Source of the DNA: Microcaldota archaeon | GTDB lineage: Archaea > Micrarchaeota > Micrarchaeia > Norongarragalinales > JACRGE01 | Direction of reading: 5' to 3' | Length of the DNA stretch: 44,252 nucleotides | Assembly: GCA_016212465.1 (NCBI GenBank) | Contig: JACRGE010000020.1 | Coordinates: forward strand, 1-44,252 | Shown here: positions 16,391 to 24,861 of the stretch, piece by piece | Position numbering within the stretch: the stretch's first letter is position 1 | Layout of the letters: each line of letters starts with the position of its first letter | The notes under the pieces: generated by a model | What the model was told of the DNA's origin: nothing | Database searches by the model: none | What the model saw: the letters and a program-made list of their open reading frames with translations, nothing else | Made by a program: the position numbers and the translations under genes

Positions 16391-19174
16391 ATGCTTAGAC
16401 CAGAGGTTGTTAAGGCTGCGAAAATGAAGGGCTTCAAGGAATTTACTGAAATCCAACTCAAGGCGATTCCCGAGGTGTTGGCTGGGAAAAACACCTTGAT
16501 CATCGCTCCAGTCGGGTATGGAAAAACCGAGGCAGCTGTCTTGCCTGTTTTTTCAAAGATGCTGGATCTGCGAGAAAAGGGAGAAACGGCGGGTATTCAA
16601 GCCATTTATATTACTCCCCTGCGGGCGCTCAATAGGGACATGCTCTCGCGTTTAGACTTCTGGTGCAGCGAACTTGGTATCTCACTGTCCGTCAGGCACG
16701 GTGATACCCCGCAGAGCCAAAGGCGCAAGCAGAGGGACCAGCCCATGCAGTTCCTTATTACAACCCCCGAAACCCTTTGCAGCGTGTTAGTAGCTCCTGT
16801 ACTCAAAGACTCACTGAAAAACGTGAGGTTTGTCATGATCGATGAAGTGCACGAATTATTTGAGAGCAAGCGAGGAATCCAATTAAGCGTTGCACTCGAG
16901 CGTTTAAAAGAAAAAGCCATCCCCCAGATTCAAATAGTTGGTTTGAGCGCGACAGTCGGAAACGAGCGGGAAGTAGCTTCCTTTCTTTCGCGTGACGCCA
17001 ACGTCGTGAAAATAGGGTTTCGCAGAGAGCTTCAGATTTCTGTGGAGTCGCCCCCCCTGGGCAAGGAGAGCATGCCGTTCAGCATTCTCCATTTTTCTCA
17101 AGAAACCGTTGGAAAACTCCAGAGGATAACCTCTGCAGTATTGGAACACAAGAGAACACTGATTTTCGTGAACACTAGAGCAACAGCAGAGTCCCTTGCT
17201 TCCCGCTTGTTCCAGGTTCCAGAGCTGAAGGAAAAGATTGCAGTCCACCACTCCTCGCTCTCGAAGGAAGTCCGCATTGAAACCGAGGAGAGATTCAAGG
17301 CAGGGGAGTTGAAGGCAATCATCTGCACGTCTTCCCTCGAGCTCGGCATAGATATTGGGGATATTGACTTGGTTATTCAATACATGTCGCCGAGGCAGGT
17401 GACTCGTTTGATTCAACGCGTTGGACGCAGCGGCCACAGAACCCACCTCATTCCAAAAGGGATAGTGCTCTCCTCTAATCCGATGGACTGCGTTGAATCC
17501 GTTGTAATCGCTGAAAAGGCGAAGAAACACGAGTTAGAGCCCCTTGAGATCCAGAAGAACGCGCTTGATGTCTTGGCTCACCAGCTGGCAGGCATGGCGC
17601 TTGATTATGGGATAATTGAATTGGAGAAAGCGTTTCAGATGGTGAGGCGCGCTTATCCTTACGCGAATCTGCAATTCGAGGCGTTCAAGGAGGTGGCGGA
17701 ACAGCTTGCTGGCGAAGGCCTCGTCTTCGTGCGGGACAATCGGCTGACAAAAAACAGCCGCACCCTCCTCTATTATTACGAAAACATTTCCATGATTCCT
17801 GATGAAAAAAAGTTCTTCGTAAAGGATGCGGCAACAAGACGGAATGTTGGAATATTGCACGAAGGGTTTGTGAGCGAATACCTAGCTGAAGGCGTTTCAT
17901 TCATAACCCGCGGGAAACCCTGGAAGGTGTTGTCCATAGAGGAAGATCAGATTCATGTTGAGCGAACAGAAGACCTTGGGGCCGCGATTCCAGACTGGGA
18001 AGGTGAACAAATTCCAGTTACTCACGAAGTAGCTCAAGAAGTTGCCGAACTGTTTAAAGAGTCGCTTGAACTGTCAGAACCAGATTTAAAGGAAAAATAC
18101 AGTTGCAATTCCAGCGCAATAGAGCGAATCAAGGAATTTGCGCTGAAACAAACCGCTTTCTTTCTTCCTGCGCCTAAAAAAGTGTTTTTTGAGCGTCAAG
18201 GACGTTTCCTCCTCATTCACTCCTTTCTGGGAAGCAGAGAGAACGAGACGCTCTCCCGCATCCTCTCCCTCTTCCTCGCTTCAGAGCTTGGCTATCCGGT
18301 ACGCAGCCGTTCTTCGACTTACTCAATCTTGTTTGAGCTTGATAAACCATTTTCTCCAGAGCATTTCTGTAAGCTGCTAAAGGAAATGCCACCCAATAAA
18401 CTAAGGCAGATCTTAGAGCCAGTCCTTCATAACACCTCTTTGTTCAGGTATAAGTTCATAGCAGTAGGGCGGCGATTCGGTTTTCTTAGGCGAGACGTGG
18501 ATTACAAGGAAGTGAGTCTAAAGAGAATCATTGAATCCCAGAAGCACCTGCCAGTCTTCAACGAGGCATTAAACGAACTGTATCATGAGAAATTGCGTTT
18601 AAACGAGGTAAGCGATTTCCTGGAAAGGCTTGGAATGGGTGAAATCGTTTTTGAAGTAGTCGATTCCTTAAAGGGCCTTTCGCCAATCAGCAAGGATTTT
18701 CTTGAGTTCGAGGGATACTCGGAATTGTTTGCGCCTATAGAGCCCACTTCAGAGCTCATTGAAACCTTCAGAGCCAATCTCTTGGAGCGACGCGTTGAGT
18801 TGTTGTGCACCTACTGCAAGAAAACATTTACCCGCCGTATAAATGACTTTAGCCCAAAGATCTTTTGCCCATATTGCTCTTCCAATCAACTGACGTTAGC
18901 CAAGTTTAAGGAAGTATTTGAAAAGGAGGAGCGCAGGAAAGTTAGTGGATTGACTGCTGAGGAAAGAAGAAAGTACCGTGAACTGCTGCGCATCACAGCC
19001 CTCATCTCCTCTTATGGAAAACGGGCGCTCCTTGCCCTGGAAACCTATGGCGTTGGACCAGACGTAGGTGCAAGGATTCTTGCAAGAATGCACAGAACCG
19101 ACGAGGGGTTTTACAAGGATTTGCTGCAGGCGCAGAAGGATTTCATTCGTACGAGGAAATACTGGCGCGTTTAA
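16391..19174 (+). CDS. Lhr-type superfamily 2 ATP-dependent helicase
   Basis: The 927-residue protein carries the SF2 motifs: Q-like FTEIQLKAIP, Walker A APVGYGKTEAA, ITPLRALNRDM, TTPETL, DEVHELF (motif II), GLSATVGN (III), SLELGIDIGDIDLVIQ (V) and RLIQRVGRSGHR (VI). Past the RecA domains come a winged-helix/Lhr core and, near residues 800-830, a zinc ribbon (CTYCKKTFTRRINDFSPKIFCPYC), then a helical end. This fits the archaeal Lhr2/ASH-like branch, helicases that unwind DNA or RNA hybrids with 3'-5' polarity in repair or RNA processing. It converges with the ubiquitin arm, and the stop codons overlap by 2 nt. Confidence 0.9.
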   Translation: MLRPEVVKAAKMKGFKEFTEIQLKAIPEVLAGKNTLIIAPVGYGKTEAAVLPVFSKMLDLREKGETAGIQAIYITPLRALNRDMLSRLDFWCSELGISLSVRHGDTPQSQRRKQRDQPMQFLITTPETLCSVLVAPVLKDSLKNVRFVMIDEVHELFESKRGIQLSVALERLKEKAIPQIQIVGLSATVGNEREVASFLSRDANVVKIGFRRELQISVESPPLGKESMPFSILHFSQETVGKLQRITSAVLEHKRTLIFVNTRATAESLASRLFQVPELKEKIAVHHSSLSKEVRIETEERFKAGELKAIICTSSLELGIDIGDIDLVIQYMSPRQVTRLIQRVGRSGHRTHLIPKGIVLSSNPMDCVESVVIAEKAKKHELEPLEIQKNALDVLAHQLAGMALDYGIIELEKAFQMVRRAYPYANLQFEAFKEVAEQLAGEGLVFVRDNRLTKNSRTLLYYYENISMIPDEKKFFVKDAATRRNVGILHEGFVSEYLAEGVSFITRGKPWKVLSIEEDQIHVERTEDLGAAIPDWEGEQIPVTHEVAQEVAELFKESLELSEPDLKEKYSCNSSAIERIKEFALKQTAFFLPAPKKVFFERQGRFLLIHSFLGSRENETLSRILSLFLASELGYPVRSRSSTYSILFELDKPFSPEHFCKLLKEMPPNKLRQILEPVLHNTSLFRYKFIAVGRRFGFLRRDVDYKEVSLKRIIESQKHLPVFNEALNELYHEKLRLNEVSDFLERLGMGEIVFEVVDSLKGLSPISKDFLEFEGYSELFAPIEPTSELIETFRANLLERRVELLCTYCKKTFTRRINDFSPKIFCPYCSSNQLTLAKFKEVFEKEERRKVSGLTAEERRKYRELLRITALISSYGKRALLALETYGVGPDVGARILARMHRTDEGFYKDLLQAQKDFIRTRKYWRV

Positions 19175-19344
19175 TCCGGTTCCTTCAACCCAAGGATTCT
19201 TTTAATTTTCTCCGTCAATCCTTTCTTTCTTTTTTTCTTTTCTGGCTCGAAGATTTCAATGAAATTGAATTCCGTTTCCGAAGGAGGCTTGCGCTCCTCG
19301 AACTGTTTCTCCTTCACTTCCAGCACGCGCGGTCTTTGATTCAT
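19171..19344 (-). CDS. 57-residue charged protein, last gene of the Ub-E2 arm
   Basis: The ATG at 19344 overlaps the upstream stop in an ATGA, so I start there (MNQRPRVLEVKEKQ) rather than at the ORF-track position. The protein is Lys/Glu/Pro-rich, with a C-terminal amphipathic basic helix (GLTEKIKRILGLKEPD). Its N-terminus, RPRVLEVKEKQFEE, matches KPRVVELREKKKEE at the start of the 136-residue protein in the opposite arm. Both end in a short basic helix. I therefore infer that the two are related accessory proteins of the ubiquitin system, perhaps membrane-associating or substrate-like. No known family. Confidence 0.65.
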   Translation of the reverse strand: MNQRPRVLEVKEKQFEERKPPSETEFNFIEIFEPEKKKRKKGLTEKIKRILGLKEPD

Positions 19345-20009
19345 TTTTTCTCTTCTCTTTCGTCCATCCATATCGGAAGGATTTGTTGAACAATGCACTC
19401 TGCTAGTGTTTTGAGCATGAGTTCACCCATCAAACCCGCTTGTTTTGAAGCCTTTAAGTCTGCAGGGCGCAAACGACCAAGAAGCTTCTGAGCGCGTTCA
19501 TTCGAAATACCCCCAAAAGCTTCACGGATCTCTTGCTGTTTCCTTGCCAAAAGAGTCCCCCGCGAAGGGTCTTTGTAAATCACAGGTATTTCAATAGCAT
19601 ACTGGGGCCTGAAGGAAGGCGGGTATTTTATAGCATATGGGTCCGAAACGATATAATCATTGGGAAACTTAAGTTGATCGTGATCTTTTAGTGTAAAGGA
19701 AAATTTATTTGGTTTGCCCCCCTCTTTTGGTTTGAAACCGCAGTTGTGCAACGCAATAATTAACGCACCAGGATTTTCTTTGTGTAGCCTGCTAACCCAT
19801 CCCTTTTCTTCCTCTGACTGCCCTTCCATCCTCAAGAGTTTTTCAGGGGGGGCGTTCAAGAGGCGATAAAATAGTCCATATTCCCTCGGCAATTGCCTTA
19901 CTTGCACCTTATGGCCCCTTGACTGAAGTTCTCTGACCAAACGTCTGCCGAACAACGTTGCGCTCACTTCATTGGCGTGGGTTTTCGTAACCAAAATTAT
20001 TTTTGACAT
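19341..20009 (-). CDS. Predicted aspartoacylase/M14-like metallohydrolase in the Ub-E2 operon
   Basis: The ATG at 20009 lies one base after the E2 stop, giving 222 residues. Motifs in order: KTHANEVSAT (residues about 8-17), ALHNCGF (about 85-91) and YAIEIPVIY (about 132-140). Aspartoacylase/AstE enzymes have HGNE (zinc ligands His, Glu), DLHN (third ligand) and GIEVGP (catalytic Glu) in the same order. I infer a divergent zinc hydrolase of that fold. It shares all three motifs and a C-terminal DLKAS..AGLMGE with the 219-residue protein encoded beside E1. Possible roles are trimming of the ubiquitin-like tail or removal of a modification. No published family is recognised by me. Confidence 0.55.
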   Translation of the reverse strand: MSKIILVTKTHANEVSATLFGRRLVRELQSRGHKVQVRQLPREYGLFYRLLNAPPEKLLRMEGQSEEEKGWVSRLHKENPGALIIALHNCGFKPKEGGKPNKFSFTLKDHDQLKFPNDYIVSDPYAIKYPPSFRPQYAIEIPVIYKDPSRGTLLARKQQEIREAFGGISNERAQKLLGRLRPADLKASKQAGLMGELMLKTLAECIVQQILPIWMDEREEKK

Positions 20010-20010
20010 T

Positions 20011-20472
20011 TCACACAATCCTAGGCTTTCTTTCAATTGATTTAGGCGTGCCTTTTTCCAGAGAAATGAAATATTCCGCCGCTTCCTTGTTTAAAGGATC
20101 CTTTGGGTTCGGGTTTTCGAGCAGCTGCTTCAAACCATCCGCAATGTTCTTGACGGAAACGGAAGGAGACCATAACTTAAGGAGTTGAATGCACACGAGC
20201 CCTTCCTTGGAAATGTTGGGATGAAAAATAGGGGTGGTCCAATAGACTTCAACGCCCCCAGCATAAGGAAATTCTCTCCTCAAGAGGATTCTTACCTCAT
20301 GCGTAAATCTTTTTTTTATTTCGTTGCCAGAGTTTTCAACCCCTTCTCCAACAAACCTTAGCCTATAATCCGTTTTTTCCTCGTTTACATTAAATGCTAC
20401 GCCGGATTTTTTCATTTCATCAAATTCGCTTTCCAATCTTCTCTTCCAAATCACCTCTGGGAGTTGGGGCAT
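20011..20472 (-). CDS. Ubiquitin-conjugating enzyme E2 homologue
   Basis: The ATG at 20472 gives 153 residues, the usual UBC-fold length; the ORF-track start is a TTG. Residues 81-125 carry the E2 signature: TTPIFHPNI (HPN motif, 84-86), GLVCIQLL with the catalytic Cys94, LWSPSVSVKNIADGLKQLL, and PNPKDPLNKEAA. This is a eukaryote-type E2, not a bacterial degenerate form. It should accept the ubiquitin-like protein from the E1 as a thioester on Cys94. It starts one base after the ubiquitin-like gene's stop and is followed one base later by the metallohydrolase-like gene, so translation is tightly coupled. Confidence 0.92.
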   Translation of the reverse strand: MPQLPEVIWKRRLESEFDEMKKSGVAFNVNEEKTDYRLRFVGEGVENSGNEIKKRFTHEVRILLRREFPYAGGVEVYWTTPIFHPNISKEGLVCIQLLKLWSPSVSVKNIADGLKQLLENPNPKDPLNKEAAEYFISLEKGTPKSIERKPRIV

Positions 20473-20473
20473 T

Positions 20474-20746
20474 TCATTCCCTCGCAATATTGGAAAAATT
20501 ACCCCCCGTTGGGTCGGGCATAAGCAAAAGAGTGTCGCCTTCCTTTAGCCCCGCGTCGCCGACTGTGAGTTCCGGGTTTAGAATCTTCTTATCCTGGGTT
20601 GCAAGCACGTGGCGGTCTTTTAGTTGCAGGCTTTCAGCCACGACTTCCAAAACAGCGCTTATCGTAAACGCGTTTTCTACTGCCACCACGATTTCCTTTC
20701 CTGAAGTAGCGTGGGAAACTATGACCGTGAACTCTCCTTCCTCCAT
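20474..20746 (-). CDS. Ubiquitin-like modifier precursor with Gly-Gly and an 8-residue tail
   Basis: The ATG at 20746 with ribosome site GGGGTGAT gives 90 residues (an in-frame ATG at 20761 would add five). The beta-grasp pattern is clear: FTVIVSHATSGKEIVVAV (two strands), ISAVLEVVAESLQL (helix), RHVLATQDKKILNPELTVGDAGLKEGDTLLLM. The Leu-Asn-Pro/Thr-Val-Gly-Asp stretch parallels ubiquitin's TLSDY region. The sequence then ends DPTGG plus NFSNIARE, so Gly81-Gly82 must be exposed by a peptidase before E1 can use it, as in Caldiarchaeum and in eukaryotic ubiquitin precursors. The JAMM protein in the other arm is the obvious candidate. First gene of its operon. Confidence 0.9.
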   Translation of the reverse strand: MEEGEFTVIVSHATSGKEIVVAVENAFTISAVLEVVAESLQLKDRHVLATQDKKILNPELTVGDAGLKEGDTLLLMPDPTGGNFSNIARE

Positions 20747-20824: not shown

Positions 20825-21235
20825 GTGGGAGACAAGCCGAGGGTCGTAGAGTTGCGTGAAAAGAAGAAGGAAGAACCGCAGGAATCCCCTAGTGCACCAG
20901 TTGAAGAAAAACTAGAGGAAACACAAGCTCCAGAAGTCCCACCTCCGCCTCAAGAAAAACAAGAGCCACCCAAAAAACCAAAGGTACTCGAGGAACGGGA
21001 AGTTGTAGACTACTCTCTCTTGTTGCCAAAGGGGATTCATGAAGAGCCAGATATAGTTAGGAAGAAGAGGGAACAGGCATCGAAAGACGTTCTCCCCCTT
21101 CAAAGGAAGGAGTGGACTCCCAAAGAAATCGAGGATGCAAAAGAACTTGCTAAAAAGATTCATGCTGAAAAAGAAGAGAAAATGAATCCGCTGGAAAAAA
21201 TTGGAAGAAGAATAAAAGCATTTTTCAAAAGTTGA
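20825..21235 (+). CDS. Disordered Pro/Glu/Lys-rich protein, first gene of the JAMM-RING arm
   Basis: The GTG at 20825 with ggtggttca before it gives 136 residues (MGDKPRVVELREKKKEE...); the ORF-track TTG start adds residues that look like non-coding translation. The middle is Pro/Glu-rich and surely disordered (PPPPQEKQEPPKKPK). Towards the end comes WTPKEIEDAKELAKKIHAEK and a basic amphipathic helix NPLEKIGRRIKAFFKS. The start resembles the 57-residue protein of the other arm (PRV-E-EK-EE), and the end is of the same type. It is rich in lysines and could be a tether, adaptor or the first substrate. No family recognised. Confidence 0.65.
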   Translation: MGDKPRVVELREKKKEEPQESPSAPVEEKLEETQAPEVPPPPQEKQEPPKKPKVLEEREVVDYSLLLPKGIHEEPDIVRKKREQASKDVLPLQRKEWTPKEIEDAKELAKKIHAEKEEKMNPLEKIGRRIKAFFKS

Positions 21236-21256: not shown

Positions 21257-21721
21257 ATGTACGACGTTTATTTGGCCAAGGCGGCTATTGAAAAAGCTGA
21301 CGCGCATAGTTTGAGGATGGCGGAAAAAAATTTGGAGGCCCTGGGTTTGTTGGTTGGTGATGCATTCCACTTTGAGGACCGGCAATGGGTCTTGGTAGAG
21401 GATTACCTGACTGCCCCAAACATCTCTTCTCCCGTTTCAGTCAGGTTCACTGAAGAGGCGCTTGCCGAGATAGCTGCCGATATAAGCAATAGGAAAGCAG
21501 GTAAGTTGATTGTGGGATGGTGCCATTCTCATCCAGGATATGGTTGTTTTCTCTCGTTACAGGACCTAGAAACCCAGCAAAAGTATTTTCCAGAGGAATT
21601 CCACATTGCAATGGTCATTGATCCAACCGGATGCGCAGGCAATAAATCACTTAAAAGAATATTCCGTTTAAAGAACGGTGGTTGTCACGAGGTTTCGTTT
21701 GCTGTATTTACAGAGAAGTGA
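21257..21721 (+). CDS. Rpn11-like JAMM/MPN+ metallopeptidase
   Basis: The ATG at 21257 follows gggcgactgc and gives 154 residues; the ORF-track start is a TTG. The JAMM zinc site is complete: Glu27 in LEALGLLVG, and GWCHSHPGYGCFLSLQDLETQ with His-x-His, the conserved Ser and the Asp ligand. The GYGCFLSxxD form and the following TQQ are those of Rpn11/CSN5-type deubiquitinases rather than bacterial RadC or Mec+ proteins. It should cut after Gly-Gly, both maturing the ubiquitin-like precursor and releasing it from conjugates. Its stop overlaps the start of the RING gene (TGATG). Confidence 0.92.
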   Translation: MYDVYLAKAAIEKADAHSLRMAEKNLEALGLLVGDAFHFEDRQWVLVEDYLTAPNISSPVSVRFTEEALAEIAADISNRKAGKLIVGWCHSHPGYGCFLSLQDLETQQKYFPEEFHIAMVIDPTGCAGNKSLKRIFRLKNGGCHEVSFAVFTEK

Positions 21722-22605
21722 TGGAAATGGAAGCTCCACAGCACAACGAGGTTAAACCCATTGGCGAAGCCATTTCAAAAAGTGAAGAAACAAGGTCGGA
21801 AAAAAAGAAGAAAACCAGAGTAGTTGCTCGGGCCAGGAAAAAAGGCGCGAGGATGCGCTTGGACCGCTTCGACAAAGACCTTCTTCACGCACTCTACACT
21901 GGAGAAAAGAATGCTCTGAAGATAGCTGAATGGATGAACGTTGATTTGGCGGAATTCAAGGAGAGGGTTAAAAAACTCATAAACAGAAAGCTCCTTGTTG
22001 AGGACGCCTCAGACTCAACTGTAATCCGGCTTGGGGTCAAGGGATACGATTTTTGTGTGTTAACGTTCAAGAAAAGAGATGAAAAAGCAGGTGCGAGGAC
22101 AGAAGAGGGACGCCAGAAAACACTTGATGTAGTGGCGGAACTCAAAGAAGGAAAGCTAGTTGAAAAAGAACCGGGTCCTGCAGAAACAGGGGTTCAGGAG
22201 GCAGCAAAAGAAACTCGTGAGGTGGCACAGTCTCAAGAGACGAAGGACAGAATAGACGTATTTGAGGCGTTTGAGAAATACGGCCCAAAAGAAACGAAGG
22301 AAACGCCTAAGAAGCAAGAACAAAAACAACCAGAACCGCCCCCGAGTGTTGAGCTCATGAAACCGCTTGTGGTGGATGGAAAGGAAAAATGCGAGTTATG
22401 CAAGACGGAATTCAAGACAACAGTTGGACGGGCCAGTAACCCTAAATACGGCCATTGCTTTTGTGGAGCGGCTTATCACCGGGACTGCTATGAGGCATCG
22501 CTTGATAGTGGAGGTTATTGCGTGCGCTGCGGGAAGAAACTAAAACTGCTTTTAAACAAACAAAGCGAGGAAGCGGTGAAAGACATAAAGCCTCTCTTCG
22601 ATTAA
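21721..22605 (+). CDS. Winged-helix plus RING-type zinc protein, candidate E3
   Basis: The ATG at 21721 overlaps the JAMM stop; the product is 294 residues. Residues about 45-125 form a helix-rich winged-helix-like domain (FDKDLLHALYTGEKNALKIAEW... RKLLVEDASDSTVIRLGVKGY). A long charged, disordered linker follows (about 130-225). The C-terminus has C-x2-C (CELC), HCFCGAAYHRDC and YCVRC, eight or more Cys/His in RING-like order. Caldiarchaeum has a small RING-finger protein in its ubiquitin cluster; here the RING is fused to a putative substrate- or DNA-binding domain. I infer an E3 that recruits E2 by the RING. Confidence 0.75.
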   Translation: MEMEAPQHNEVKPIGEAISKSEETRSEKKKKTRVVARARKKGARMRLDRFDKDLLHALYTGEKNALKIAEWMNVDLAEFKERVKKLINRKLLVEDASDSTVIRLGVKGYDFCVLTFKKRDEKAGARTEEGRQKTLDVVAELKEGKLVEKEPGPAETGVQEAAKETREVAQSQETKDRIDVFEAFEKYGPKETKETPKKQEQKQPEPPPSVELMKPLVVDGKEKCELCKTEFKTTVGRASNPKYGHCFCGAAYHRDCYEASLDSGGYCVRCGKKLKLLLNKQSEEAVKDIKPLFD

Positions 22606-22624: not shown

Positions 22625-23236
22625 TTATGCGGGGCAGATTTCAGCAATCTTTTCAGCAAACGCCTTCAATTCGTTGTAAGATATTCGTTTGCTGTCTATC
22701 TCTGTTATGAGGAAGATCATTGCGCTGTCGCAAGGCACGTTCAGTTTCGTGGATTCTGCCGGCGTATCTTCCTCTTCTTTGGAGTAGAATGCTTGCCTTC
22801 CATCAATCTCCAACACGTAACTGCTTGGGAAAATGGCGCCCAAGGACTGTCCCTCGTCTTCTGTAGCTTTTCTTAACGTGAACTTGTAGCTTACGTGCGT
22901 AAGGTTTTCTACCGTGCTAGTCTCCCCCTCATAATACGTTACATATGACGGACTTGTGAATGAAACCTTTTGAAAGACTACTCTATTTTTAAAAACATTT
23001 GCAAAATATTCGTTTACTGTGCGTTCAAACCGTTCCTTGATACCCCCCAAGCCTGCTTCTGTAGTAGTGCTCGTAACAACTTCGGTGGTGGTCGTAGTCT
23101 GTTGGATTGTTGTTGTAGTCAGAATTTCAGTTGTAGTTGTAAATACGGTCGTGGACGTCTGCATCCTCTCGGGTTGTTTCAAGCAACCAAACAGCAACAA
23201 ACTCAAAACCAGGATTCCAAGGAATACTCTCTTCAT
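22625..23236 (-). CDS. Lipoprotein-like exported protein with Thr-rich linker
   Basis: The 203-residue protein starts MKRVFLGILVLSLLLFGCLKQ, a signal peptide with a lipobox-like Leu-Phe-Gly-Cys. Residues about 27-65 are a Thr-rich linker (TTTTEILTTTTIQQTTTTTE), probably O-glycosylated. The C-terminal domain of about 135 residues (from GGIKERFERTVNEYF) has alternating strands and helices (KVSFTSPSYVTYYEGE, SYKFTLRKATEDEG) and is unrecognised. It is an anchored surface protein. Though it lies between the RING and E1 genes, its exported nature argues against a part in ubiquitin chemistry. It lies 204 bp downstream of E1 on the same strand. Confidence 0.7.
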   Translation of the reverse strand: MKRVFLGILVLSLLLFGCLKQPERMQTSTTVFTTTTEILTTTTIQQTTTTTEVVTSTTTEAGLGGIKERFERTVNEYFANVFKNRVVFQKVSFTSPSYVTYYEGETSTVENLTHVSYKFTLRKATEDEGQSLGAIFPSSYVLEIDGRQAFYSKEEEDTPAESTKLNVPCDSAMIFLITEIDSKRISYNELKAFAEKIAEICPA

Positions 23237-23440: not shown

Positions 23441-24205
23441 CTATAAATGGACTGGGCAGCCCCTTCTCTTGATCACCTCATAGACTCTAAACTCTTCAGT
23501 CGAGCCGTTGTAGAATAAGTATCGTCCTACCAGCGTGTTTTTTTCAGGCATTCCCAAAGCAAGCTTTACAAACTCGTTTGCTTGGACCCCTGCGATTACG
23601 TTGTTCGTGGTTGAAAGAGCGGGCGTCTTTGGGTCTAGGAAATCAAGGGGTTCACCTTTGCAGGAGTATTTCTTCCACATTCCCTTGTAGTCTTCTTCGC
23701 TTACAGAACATTCAATGCAAGAAGAAGGCGCTTTCGTCACCTGAACTTTTCCCATCAAGCCATTTATGCCTGCGTCGATGAGGGCGGCTTTGGCGTAGCA
23801 GTGTGCGTTCAAGTGAAGCCTAGCACCCAAGCTGTCAAGGCAACTGAATGCAAAGCCGAATCCTTCATAAAATTCTTCAGGTAGTTCCTCAATTTTTTTC
23901 AAGATTGGTGCAATTGTTGCTCGAGGGTTTATCAAGACTGCCTTTTCAGCGATCACTTCCGCCTTCGTTTTTCCTACGTCACTCGCCTCGAAGAAAATGC
24001 ACCTGTTCAGGTTCGCCGCCTCAACTGAATCGAAGTCCACTAACGTGATGTTGTTGACGCCCGCCTGCAGCAACAGTTTTACTACTTCGTTCCCTAAGGC
24101 GCCTGCTCCGACTACTAGAACCCGTTGCTCACTGATTCTTTCTTGGTTCCAACCAGTAATTCTCTTCTGCCTATCGTAAACCTCTTCGTTCAACCTTGAA
24201 ATCAT
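23441..24205 (-). CDS. E1-like ubiquitin-activating enzyme, UBA3-like
   Basis: The 254-residue protein has the ThiF/E1 fold: VLVVGAGALGNEVVK (ATP loop, about 29-43), LVDFDSVEAANLNR (Asp and Arg of the adenylation site) and KTKAEV. The later part matches eukaryotic UBA3 rather than MoeB/ThiF: CIEC (163-166), a single Cys in WKKYSCKG (Cys182) at the place of the catalytic Cys, and TPALSTTNNVIAGVQANEFVK like UBA3's PAVASTNAVIAA..A.E. The C-terminus GCPVHL replaces the usual CPxC, so the zinc site is probably Cys3-His. It adenylates the Gly-Gly end and passes it to E2. Its ATG overlaps the upstream stop by 4 nt. Confidence 0.92.
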   Translation of the reverse strand: MISRLNEEVYDRQKRITGWNQERISEQRVLVVGAGALGNEVVKLLLQAGVNNITLVDFDSVEAANLNRCIFFEASDVGKTKAEVIAEKAVLINPRATIAPILKKIEELPEEFYEGFGFAFSCLDSLGARLHLNAHCYAKAALIDAGINGLMGKVQVTKAPSSCIECSVSEEDYKGMWKKYSCKGEPLDFLDPKTPALSTTNNVIAGVQANEFVKLALGMPEKNTLVGRYLFYNGSTEEFRVYEVIKRRGCPVHL

Positions 24206-24861
24206 TTTCTCCTCCCTTTCAAAAACTTTGGCAAAATATCTTCGTGAATGCCTTCTACAATCGCTTCCTCCATCTTCTCACCCATCAAACCTGCCTCCCG
24301 ACTAGCTTTTATGTCAACCGTTTTCAAATATTCATCAAGTAACGCTTCGGTCTCAATTCTTTCAAAGGAACGAAACCTTGATTTCAATGCCTCAAACAAT
24401 GTCCTTCTTTTCTCTTCAAGTCGTGTAGGAATCCTGTATACTGCAGGAATTTCTATATTTGCATGCACTTCGCCGCGTATTTCTGGTACTCCAAGAAGCC
24501 ACGCGGGGTTTTTTCCAGCTATTGCAGCTATTGTATCGCCTTTCTGTAGTTTTATTTTTCCACCCAGTTTTTCACTTGGTTCAGGAACATAAACAAAATT
24601 GTGGATGCCAATAACAATTGCATCAGGATTATCTTTTTTGATTTTTTCAAACCAATTTCTTTCTCTTTGTGATATATACTTAACATAAGGCCGCCTTGGA
24701 GTTGCAGAAAGCAATCTCTTTAAAACGCTGTGTCTGTAAGGAAATGTTTTAAGTTCAACCTCGTGCCCCCGCTTCTCAAGTCCAGCCACAATCCCCTTGG
24801 AGGATATTGTTGCGCTGGCTTCATTCGGGTGGTTTTTTCGAACGAGGATTATCTTCGCCAT
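24202..24861 (-). CDS. Second aspartoacylase/M14-like protein, coupled to E1
   Basis: This 219-residue protein is a paralogue of the one after E2. Shared motifs are KIILVRKNHPNEASAT, GIHNFVY, ANIEIPAVY and DIKASREAGLMGE, in the same order and spacing. HxNE, the HN pair and the IEIP glutamate mirror the zinc ligands and catalytic Glu of aspartoacylase/AstE enzymes (inference). It overlaps the E1 start as ATGA, so the pair is translated together. Having one copy in the E2 operon and one in the E1 operon argues that both serve the ubiquitin system, perhaps as a heterodimer. Confidence 0.6.
   Translation of the reverse strand: MAKIILVRKNHPNEASATISSKGIVAGLEKRGHEVELKTFPYRHSVLKRLLSATPRRPYVKYISQRERNWFEKIKKDNPDAIVIGIHNFVYVPEPSEKLGGKIKLQKGDTIAAIAGKNPAWLLGVPEIRGEVHANIEIPAVYRIPTRLEEKRRTLFEALKSRFRSFERIETEALLDEYLKTVDIKASREAGLMGEKMEEAIVEGIHEDILPKFLKGRRK

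Follow-up and report, generated by a model that had tools for sequence, protein, structure and literature searches.

Precursors of eukaryotic ubiquitin-type modifiers are processed mostly by cysteine proteases, which act on conserved precursors or on fusions. In archaea, processing of a precursor by an Rpn11 homologue is already known. The operon of Caldiarchaeum subterraneum (Hennell James 2017, PMC5654768; Fuchs 2018, PMC6043591) encodes a ubiquitin-like modifier (Ubl) with Gly-Gly, an E1, an E2 and a RING-type protein. The nine-residue tail of its modifier (CGEPIRRAA) is cut after Gly-Gly by a divergent Rpn11-type JAMM, and the E1 does not activate the uncut modifier (PMC5654768, PMC6043591). 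This enzyme, CsRpn11, also cleaves isopeptide-type conjugates (PMC5654768, PMC6043591), and its cleavage is blocked by a bulky residue at the second tail position (Gly80Trp) or by Glu at the first (PMC6043591).

The window analysed here, a stretch of 44,252 nucleotides from an uncultured archaeon, carries a gene cluster of this kind (Table 1). As in C. subterraneum, it encodes a Gly-Gly-bearing Ubl, an E1, an E2 and, as a candidate, a RING-type protein, the Rpn11-type JAMM is transcribed divergently, and the modifier has a tail of 8-9 residues. It differs in its lineage, Micrarchaeota (DPANN); furthermore, most orthologues of the modifier in this group are tail-less, helices form the front part of the RING-like protein and are followed by a long middle, and two extra conserved accessory proteins share the motif KPR[IV][IV] with the C-terminus of the E2. 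With the precursors of eukaryotic ubiquitin, NEDD8 and SUMO, the tailed lineages have in common a Gly-Gly exposed by removal of the C-terminus, but the tail here is sporadic and the sole candidate enzyme is a JAMM. The SAMP/UbaA/HvJAMM1 desampylase system is similar in its Ubl, E1-like and JAMM parts, whereas the cluster described here adds an E2 and a RING-like protein; its identity with that system was rejected, as NCBIfam scores were far under the cut-off (84 vs 450 bits for UbaA, 18 vs 130 for the desampylase). Bacterial anti-phage E1-E2 systems (Bil / 6A-6E type) were rejected as well, PADLOC giving only partial E1 adenylation matches and a weak JAB match.

Judging from the genes present, the conservation of active-site residues, the distribution of tails and the DNA context, we consider it quite likely that the gene product is the modifier of an E1-E2-RING-Rpn11/JAMM conjugation system similar to that of C. 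subterraneum, that the usual form of this tag in the order ends at Gly-Gly and would need no maturation, and that the tail in the window lineage results from loss of the stop codon.

Table 1 Features of the ubiquitin-like cluster in the window
Feature	Length	Position	Strand	Remarks
Small conserved protein downstream of E2		19171..19344	(-)	Same motif as the E2 C-terminus; RPRVLEVKEKxxEERxPPSExEFxFIE
HANE...LHN...EIP protein		19341..20009	(-)	Between E2 and small protein; 'M14-like' in the original prediction
E2 (UBC) enzyme	153 aa	20011..20472	(-)	HPN...C(IQ)..W active-site region; C-terminus ..ERKPRIV
Ubl modifier	90 aa	20474..20746	(-)	Core residues 1-82 to DPTGG, then 8-residue tail NFSNIARE
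Tail codons		20474..20500	(-)	AAT TTT TCC AAT ATT GCG AGG GAA + TGA; translated Ubl-E2 spacer
G6 run (C6 on + strand)		20502..20507	(-)	Encodes most of Gly-Gly
Accessory protein between Ubl and JAMM		20825..21235 (about)	(+)	N-terminal KPRVV; C-terminal amphipathic-looking stretch; GTG start
Rpn11-type JAMM isopeptidase (predicted)	154 aa	21257..21721	(+)	E27, H90, H92, S100, D103 invariant in aligned orthologues
RING-like protein, candidate E3		21721..22605	(+)	C-terminal zinc module CxLC...HCFCGxxYHxDC...CxRCG
E1 (ThiF fold)	254 aa	23441..24205	(-)	GAGALGNE nucleotide loop; conserved Cys in KYSCxGE
Paralogue, HPNE...IHN...EIP		24202..24861	(-)	Adjoins E1

The order carrying the cluster is probably Norongarragalinales. 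Named relatives are Candidatus Micrarchaeota MAGs, of which NC_groundwater_1324 and _395 have been treated alongside Norongarragalinales (PMC12892359). Among 117 genomes searched, the E2 family was found in 26, all in the order of the window and none outside it. The Ubl profile matched 26 of the 29 genomes of the order, the remaining three being 61-79% complete; in a sample of 295 genomes, it matched no Micrarchaeota from outside the order. In the open-licence literature, we found no report of this ubiquitin system in connection with Norongarragalinales, Micrarchaeota or DPANN, and as far as the searched literature shows, its presence in this order is new.

The Ubl had been predicted as an open reading frame ending DPTGG-NFSNIARE, and translation of the minus strand gives exactly that end (MEEGEFTVIV...LLLMPDPTGGNFSNIARE, with the stop TGA at 20476-20474). 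An alternative in-frame ATG 15 nt upstream would yield a 95 aa product, whereas the start at 20746 agrees with the MAEF/MSEF starts of relatives. That this is a real gene follows from its 51-78% identity to orthologues, from the single copy of this type in the genome and from its best fold match: for the AlphaFold2 model (pLDDT 81, tail disordered), the top PDB match was 6FNO, C. subterraneum ubiquitin with its Rpn11 (E 1.3e-6). Orthologue alignment and fold match thus place a ubiquitin-fold modifier with Gly-Gly in the cluster. Pfam ubiquitin-type matches were all below cut-off, as they were for other family members. A profile of the Ubl and its relatives matched polyubiquitin chains at 1e-27 to 1e-13, values inflated through the repeated domains, and single ubiquitin at about 0.003.

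The E2 matches UQ_con (Pfam, 2.6e-18), HPN...VC is present in 26 of 26 sequences, and its hits are ubiquitin E2s. The E1 matches ThiF (1.5e-49) and resembles both ubiquitin E1 and MoeB; GAGALGNE, ANLNR and the Cys of KYSCxGE, the candidate catalytic Cys, are conserved in 19 aligned sequences, and CxEC/CPVH are likely zinc pairs. In the RING-like protein, an N-terminal helical/wHTH-like part and a low-complexity middle precede an eight-ligand pattern, CxLC..HCxCG..HxxC..CxxCG, found in the complete alignment rows, while Pfam RING was matched only below cut-off (E 0.19). The gene order is seen repeatedly in genomes across the order (E1 > / < RING < JAMM / Ubl > E2 >). In the L045/L019 genome the cluster is split, with the Ubl about 11 kb from the E2. 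A Thr-rich lipoprotein-like ORF (22625-23236, minus strand) lies between the RING-like gene and the E1 in the window genome only, among those compared. Two 20S proteasome-fold subunits were also found in the window genome.

The original prediction held that the tail demands a processing protease and marks a maturation step like that in eukaryotes. A comparison of orthologues bears this out only in part. Gly-Gly is kept in all 26 (DPTGG in 25, DSEGG in one), so that no homologue lacking it at this place was found. In 19 of them a stop codon follows Gly-Gly directly. The other seven carry 1-18 extra residues that differ in length and sequence: NFSNIARE (window), YEKGLAQSSKSTRGKYSS, YQRSPRTPNAANGC, SA, LN (L052), N and F. 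In the divergent relative L014 (Ubl 1921-2178), DPTGG is replaced by DSEGG and one Phe follows. On a tree of concatenated Ubl, E2, JAMM and E1, the tail trait needs six changes, compared with a mean of 6.3 for shuffled labels, and 255 of 500 shuffles were as low; tails are no more clustered on the tree than shuffled labels. Four-fold silent sites are saturated between genomes of the order: their median identity is 0.30, where chance would give 0.27. A stop codon free to change would therefore have been lost almost everywhere, and its retention at exactly this place suggests selection for a protein that ends at Gly-Gly.

These data also bear on the possibility that the tail is a true propeptide whose cleavage by the JAMM is obligatory, as in eukaryotic pro-ubiquitin and in the pro-Ub of C. 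subterraneum. The combination of Gly-Gly and tail with a divergent Rpn11-type JAMM, the occurrence of tails in seven of 26 orthologues and the precedent of a 9-aa tail that blocks the E1 (PMC5654768) would all fit. On the other hand, the prevalence of tail-less orthologues and the unalike, scattered tails led us to reject a conserved propeptide as the rule for the order, and the window tail opens with Asn-Phe: as the bulky Gly80Trp at the second position stopped CsRpn11 (PMC6043591), a Phe there does not look like part of a tuned propeptide. We therefore regard an obligatory propeptide as unlikely. The tail resembles an accident of one lineage rather than a maturation step built into the system. 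Even so, six independent changes in otherwise intact-looking clusters indicate that tails are tolerated, and hence that some processing probably exists. A maturation step could also be older and have been lost in most of the order, the C. subterraneum tail being of similar length (9 aa).

The DNA at Gly-Gly suggests how the tail may have come about. The window reads CCA ACG GGG GGT, followed by the tail codons, the TGA, a single A and the ATG of the E2, which thus begins 1 nt past the tail stop. The tail overlaps the leader of the E2 and includes GAGGG, its likely ribosome-binding stretch. One added G would turn ACG GGG GGT AAT into ACG GGG GGG TAA, the usual end of the family (TGG-stop). The simplest, though not proven, account is therefore that one G was lost from the run before the TAA; read-through of the spacer to the next stop would then have added eight residues and left Gly-Gly unspoiled, since GGT also codes for glycine. 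By our estimate, a random sequence following Gly-Gly would be a single insertion from a stop in about 5% of cases, and for this reason the one-G explanation is statistically not strong. With the nearest relative only 56% identical over the concatenated proteins, the ancestral base at this end is unreadable. In four of the six other tails, the first codon (TAT, TAC, TCA or TTA) is one substitution from a stop.

That a single extra G in a homopolymer restores the family end exactly would equally be expected if the G had been dropped from a G7 run in assembly or base calling and the true protein ended at Gly-Gly. Yet the window has no fewer than 14 further G/C runs of six or more (6-9) within long, uninterrupted ORFs, which speaks against base errors of a systematic kind, and the tails of other relatives arose without a G run. 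We think such an artefact improbable and retain stop-codon loss as the preferred origin of the tail.

The candidate for removing the tail is the JAMM, which had been placed in the opposite arm of the promoter region shared with the Ubl; this arrangement is confirmed, with the addition that a small conserved gene, which the original prediction did not mention, comes first in that arm and the JAMM second. Its HSHP...S..D motif is intact, among solved structures it is closest to Rpn11 (9e-14) and to 6FJV, the Rpn11 homologue of C. subterraneum (1.8e-13), and no other JAMM was found in the window genome. The active site is kept in all 25 JAMMs found, from tailed and tail-less genomes alike. Because the presence of a tail makes no difference to this site, the conserved job of the enzyme is probably deconjugation, and the JAMM has probably been retained for removing the tag from conjugates rather than for maturation of the tail. 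By analogy with C. subterraneum, the window JAMM, if the tail is made, would probably cut behind Gly-Gly ahead of adenylation by the E1; aided by the RING-like protein, the E2 would then transfer the tag to lysines, and the same JAMM would remove it again. A tail behind Gly-Gly, the described precedent and, close by, the only JAMM found in the genome lend partial support to a eukaryote-like maturation step in the window lineage. As a general feature of the family it is contradicted, and as a designed step of this system it is not supported, given the 19 orthologues that stop at Gly-Gly, the dissimilar tails and a JAMM active site that is intact regardless.

Two further flanking genes, with 37% identity between their products, had been labelled 'M14-like'. 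This label did not stand: it rests on an HxxE...H...E pattern, and the proteins had no match in Pfam, NCBIfam or PDB sequences, nor was M14 among the best hits of a Foldseek search of the model against the PDB (pLDDT 71.5, moderate). M14 or AspA-AstE identity was consequently rejected. The family has four copies in the window genome and few in the order, and two of the examined clusters carry such genes. Most members keep HxxE, HN and EIP/EVP, the putative zinc ligands and Glu; HxxE is lost in L055 and in L058, the latter being a window-genome copy (family set L054-L059). These proteins might act as carboxypeptidases, trimming the tail or editing the modifier's end in tailed lineages, given that in both clusters with such a gene (the window and L012/L043) the tail starts with Asn and that HxxE, HN and EIP are retained in the three cluster members. 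However, such a gene is missing from the cluster in five other tailed genomes, members of the family also occur away from the cluster, including in a tail-less genome, and neither the sequence searches nor the fold search, with a model of only moderate confidence, point to a peptidase of this type. We consider a carboxypeptidase role very improbable. A link between tail and 'M14-like' gene, suggestive in two clusters, was likewise discarded in view of the other tailed genomes and the tail-less genome with a distant copy.

A feature that is possibly new is a short motif shared by three proteins of the cluster. The C-terminus of the E2 is [KRG]P[RK][ILV][ILV] in 25 of 26 genomes (20011-20031, minus strand, in the window), and the same motif opens the small protein downstream of the E2 and, in many genomes, the protein encoded between JAMM and Ubl, a gene that recurs at this position in relatives. 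Within the ATG-start gene set of the window, the E2 and the small protein are its only carriers, with the GTG-started accessory gene as the third instance. The JAMM, the E1, the RING-like protein and the Ubl lack it. An amphipathic-looking stretch is often present at the C-terminus of both accessory proteins. Across the window and L029-L051, the motif is often followed by EERxPPSExEYEFVE or by EEDYSLML. Tentatively, the system of this order may be a new variant of archaeal ubiquitylation in which the motif docks the E2 and the two accessory proteins on a shared partner. We know of no such scaffold arrangement via a shared docking motif in other ubiquitin systems.

The presence of an E1-E2-RING-JAMM cluster in a DPANN order with small genomes, confined to this one order within the sampled Micrarchaeota, bears on the origin of ubiquitylation and on its movement between archaea. 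The scattered tails imply that a 'pro' form of the modifier arises easily through loss of a stop codon, by which a maturation step like those of C. subterraneum and eukaryotes could be reached at little cost. If true, the repeated loss or gain of a tail after Gly-Gly in a single order would be a natural test of how such a maturation step originates.
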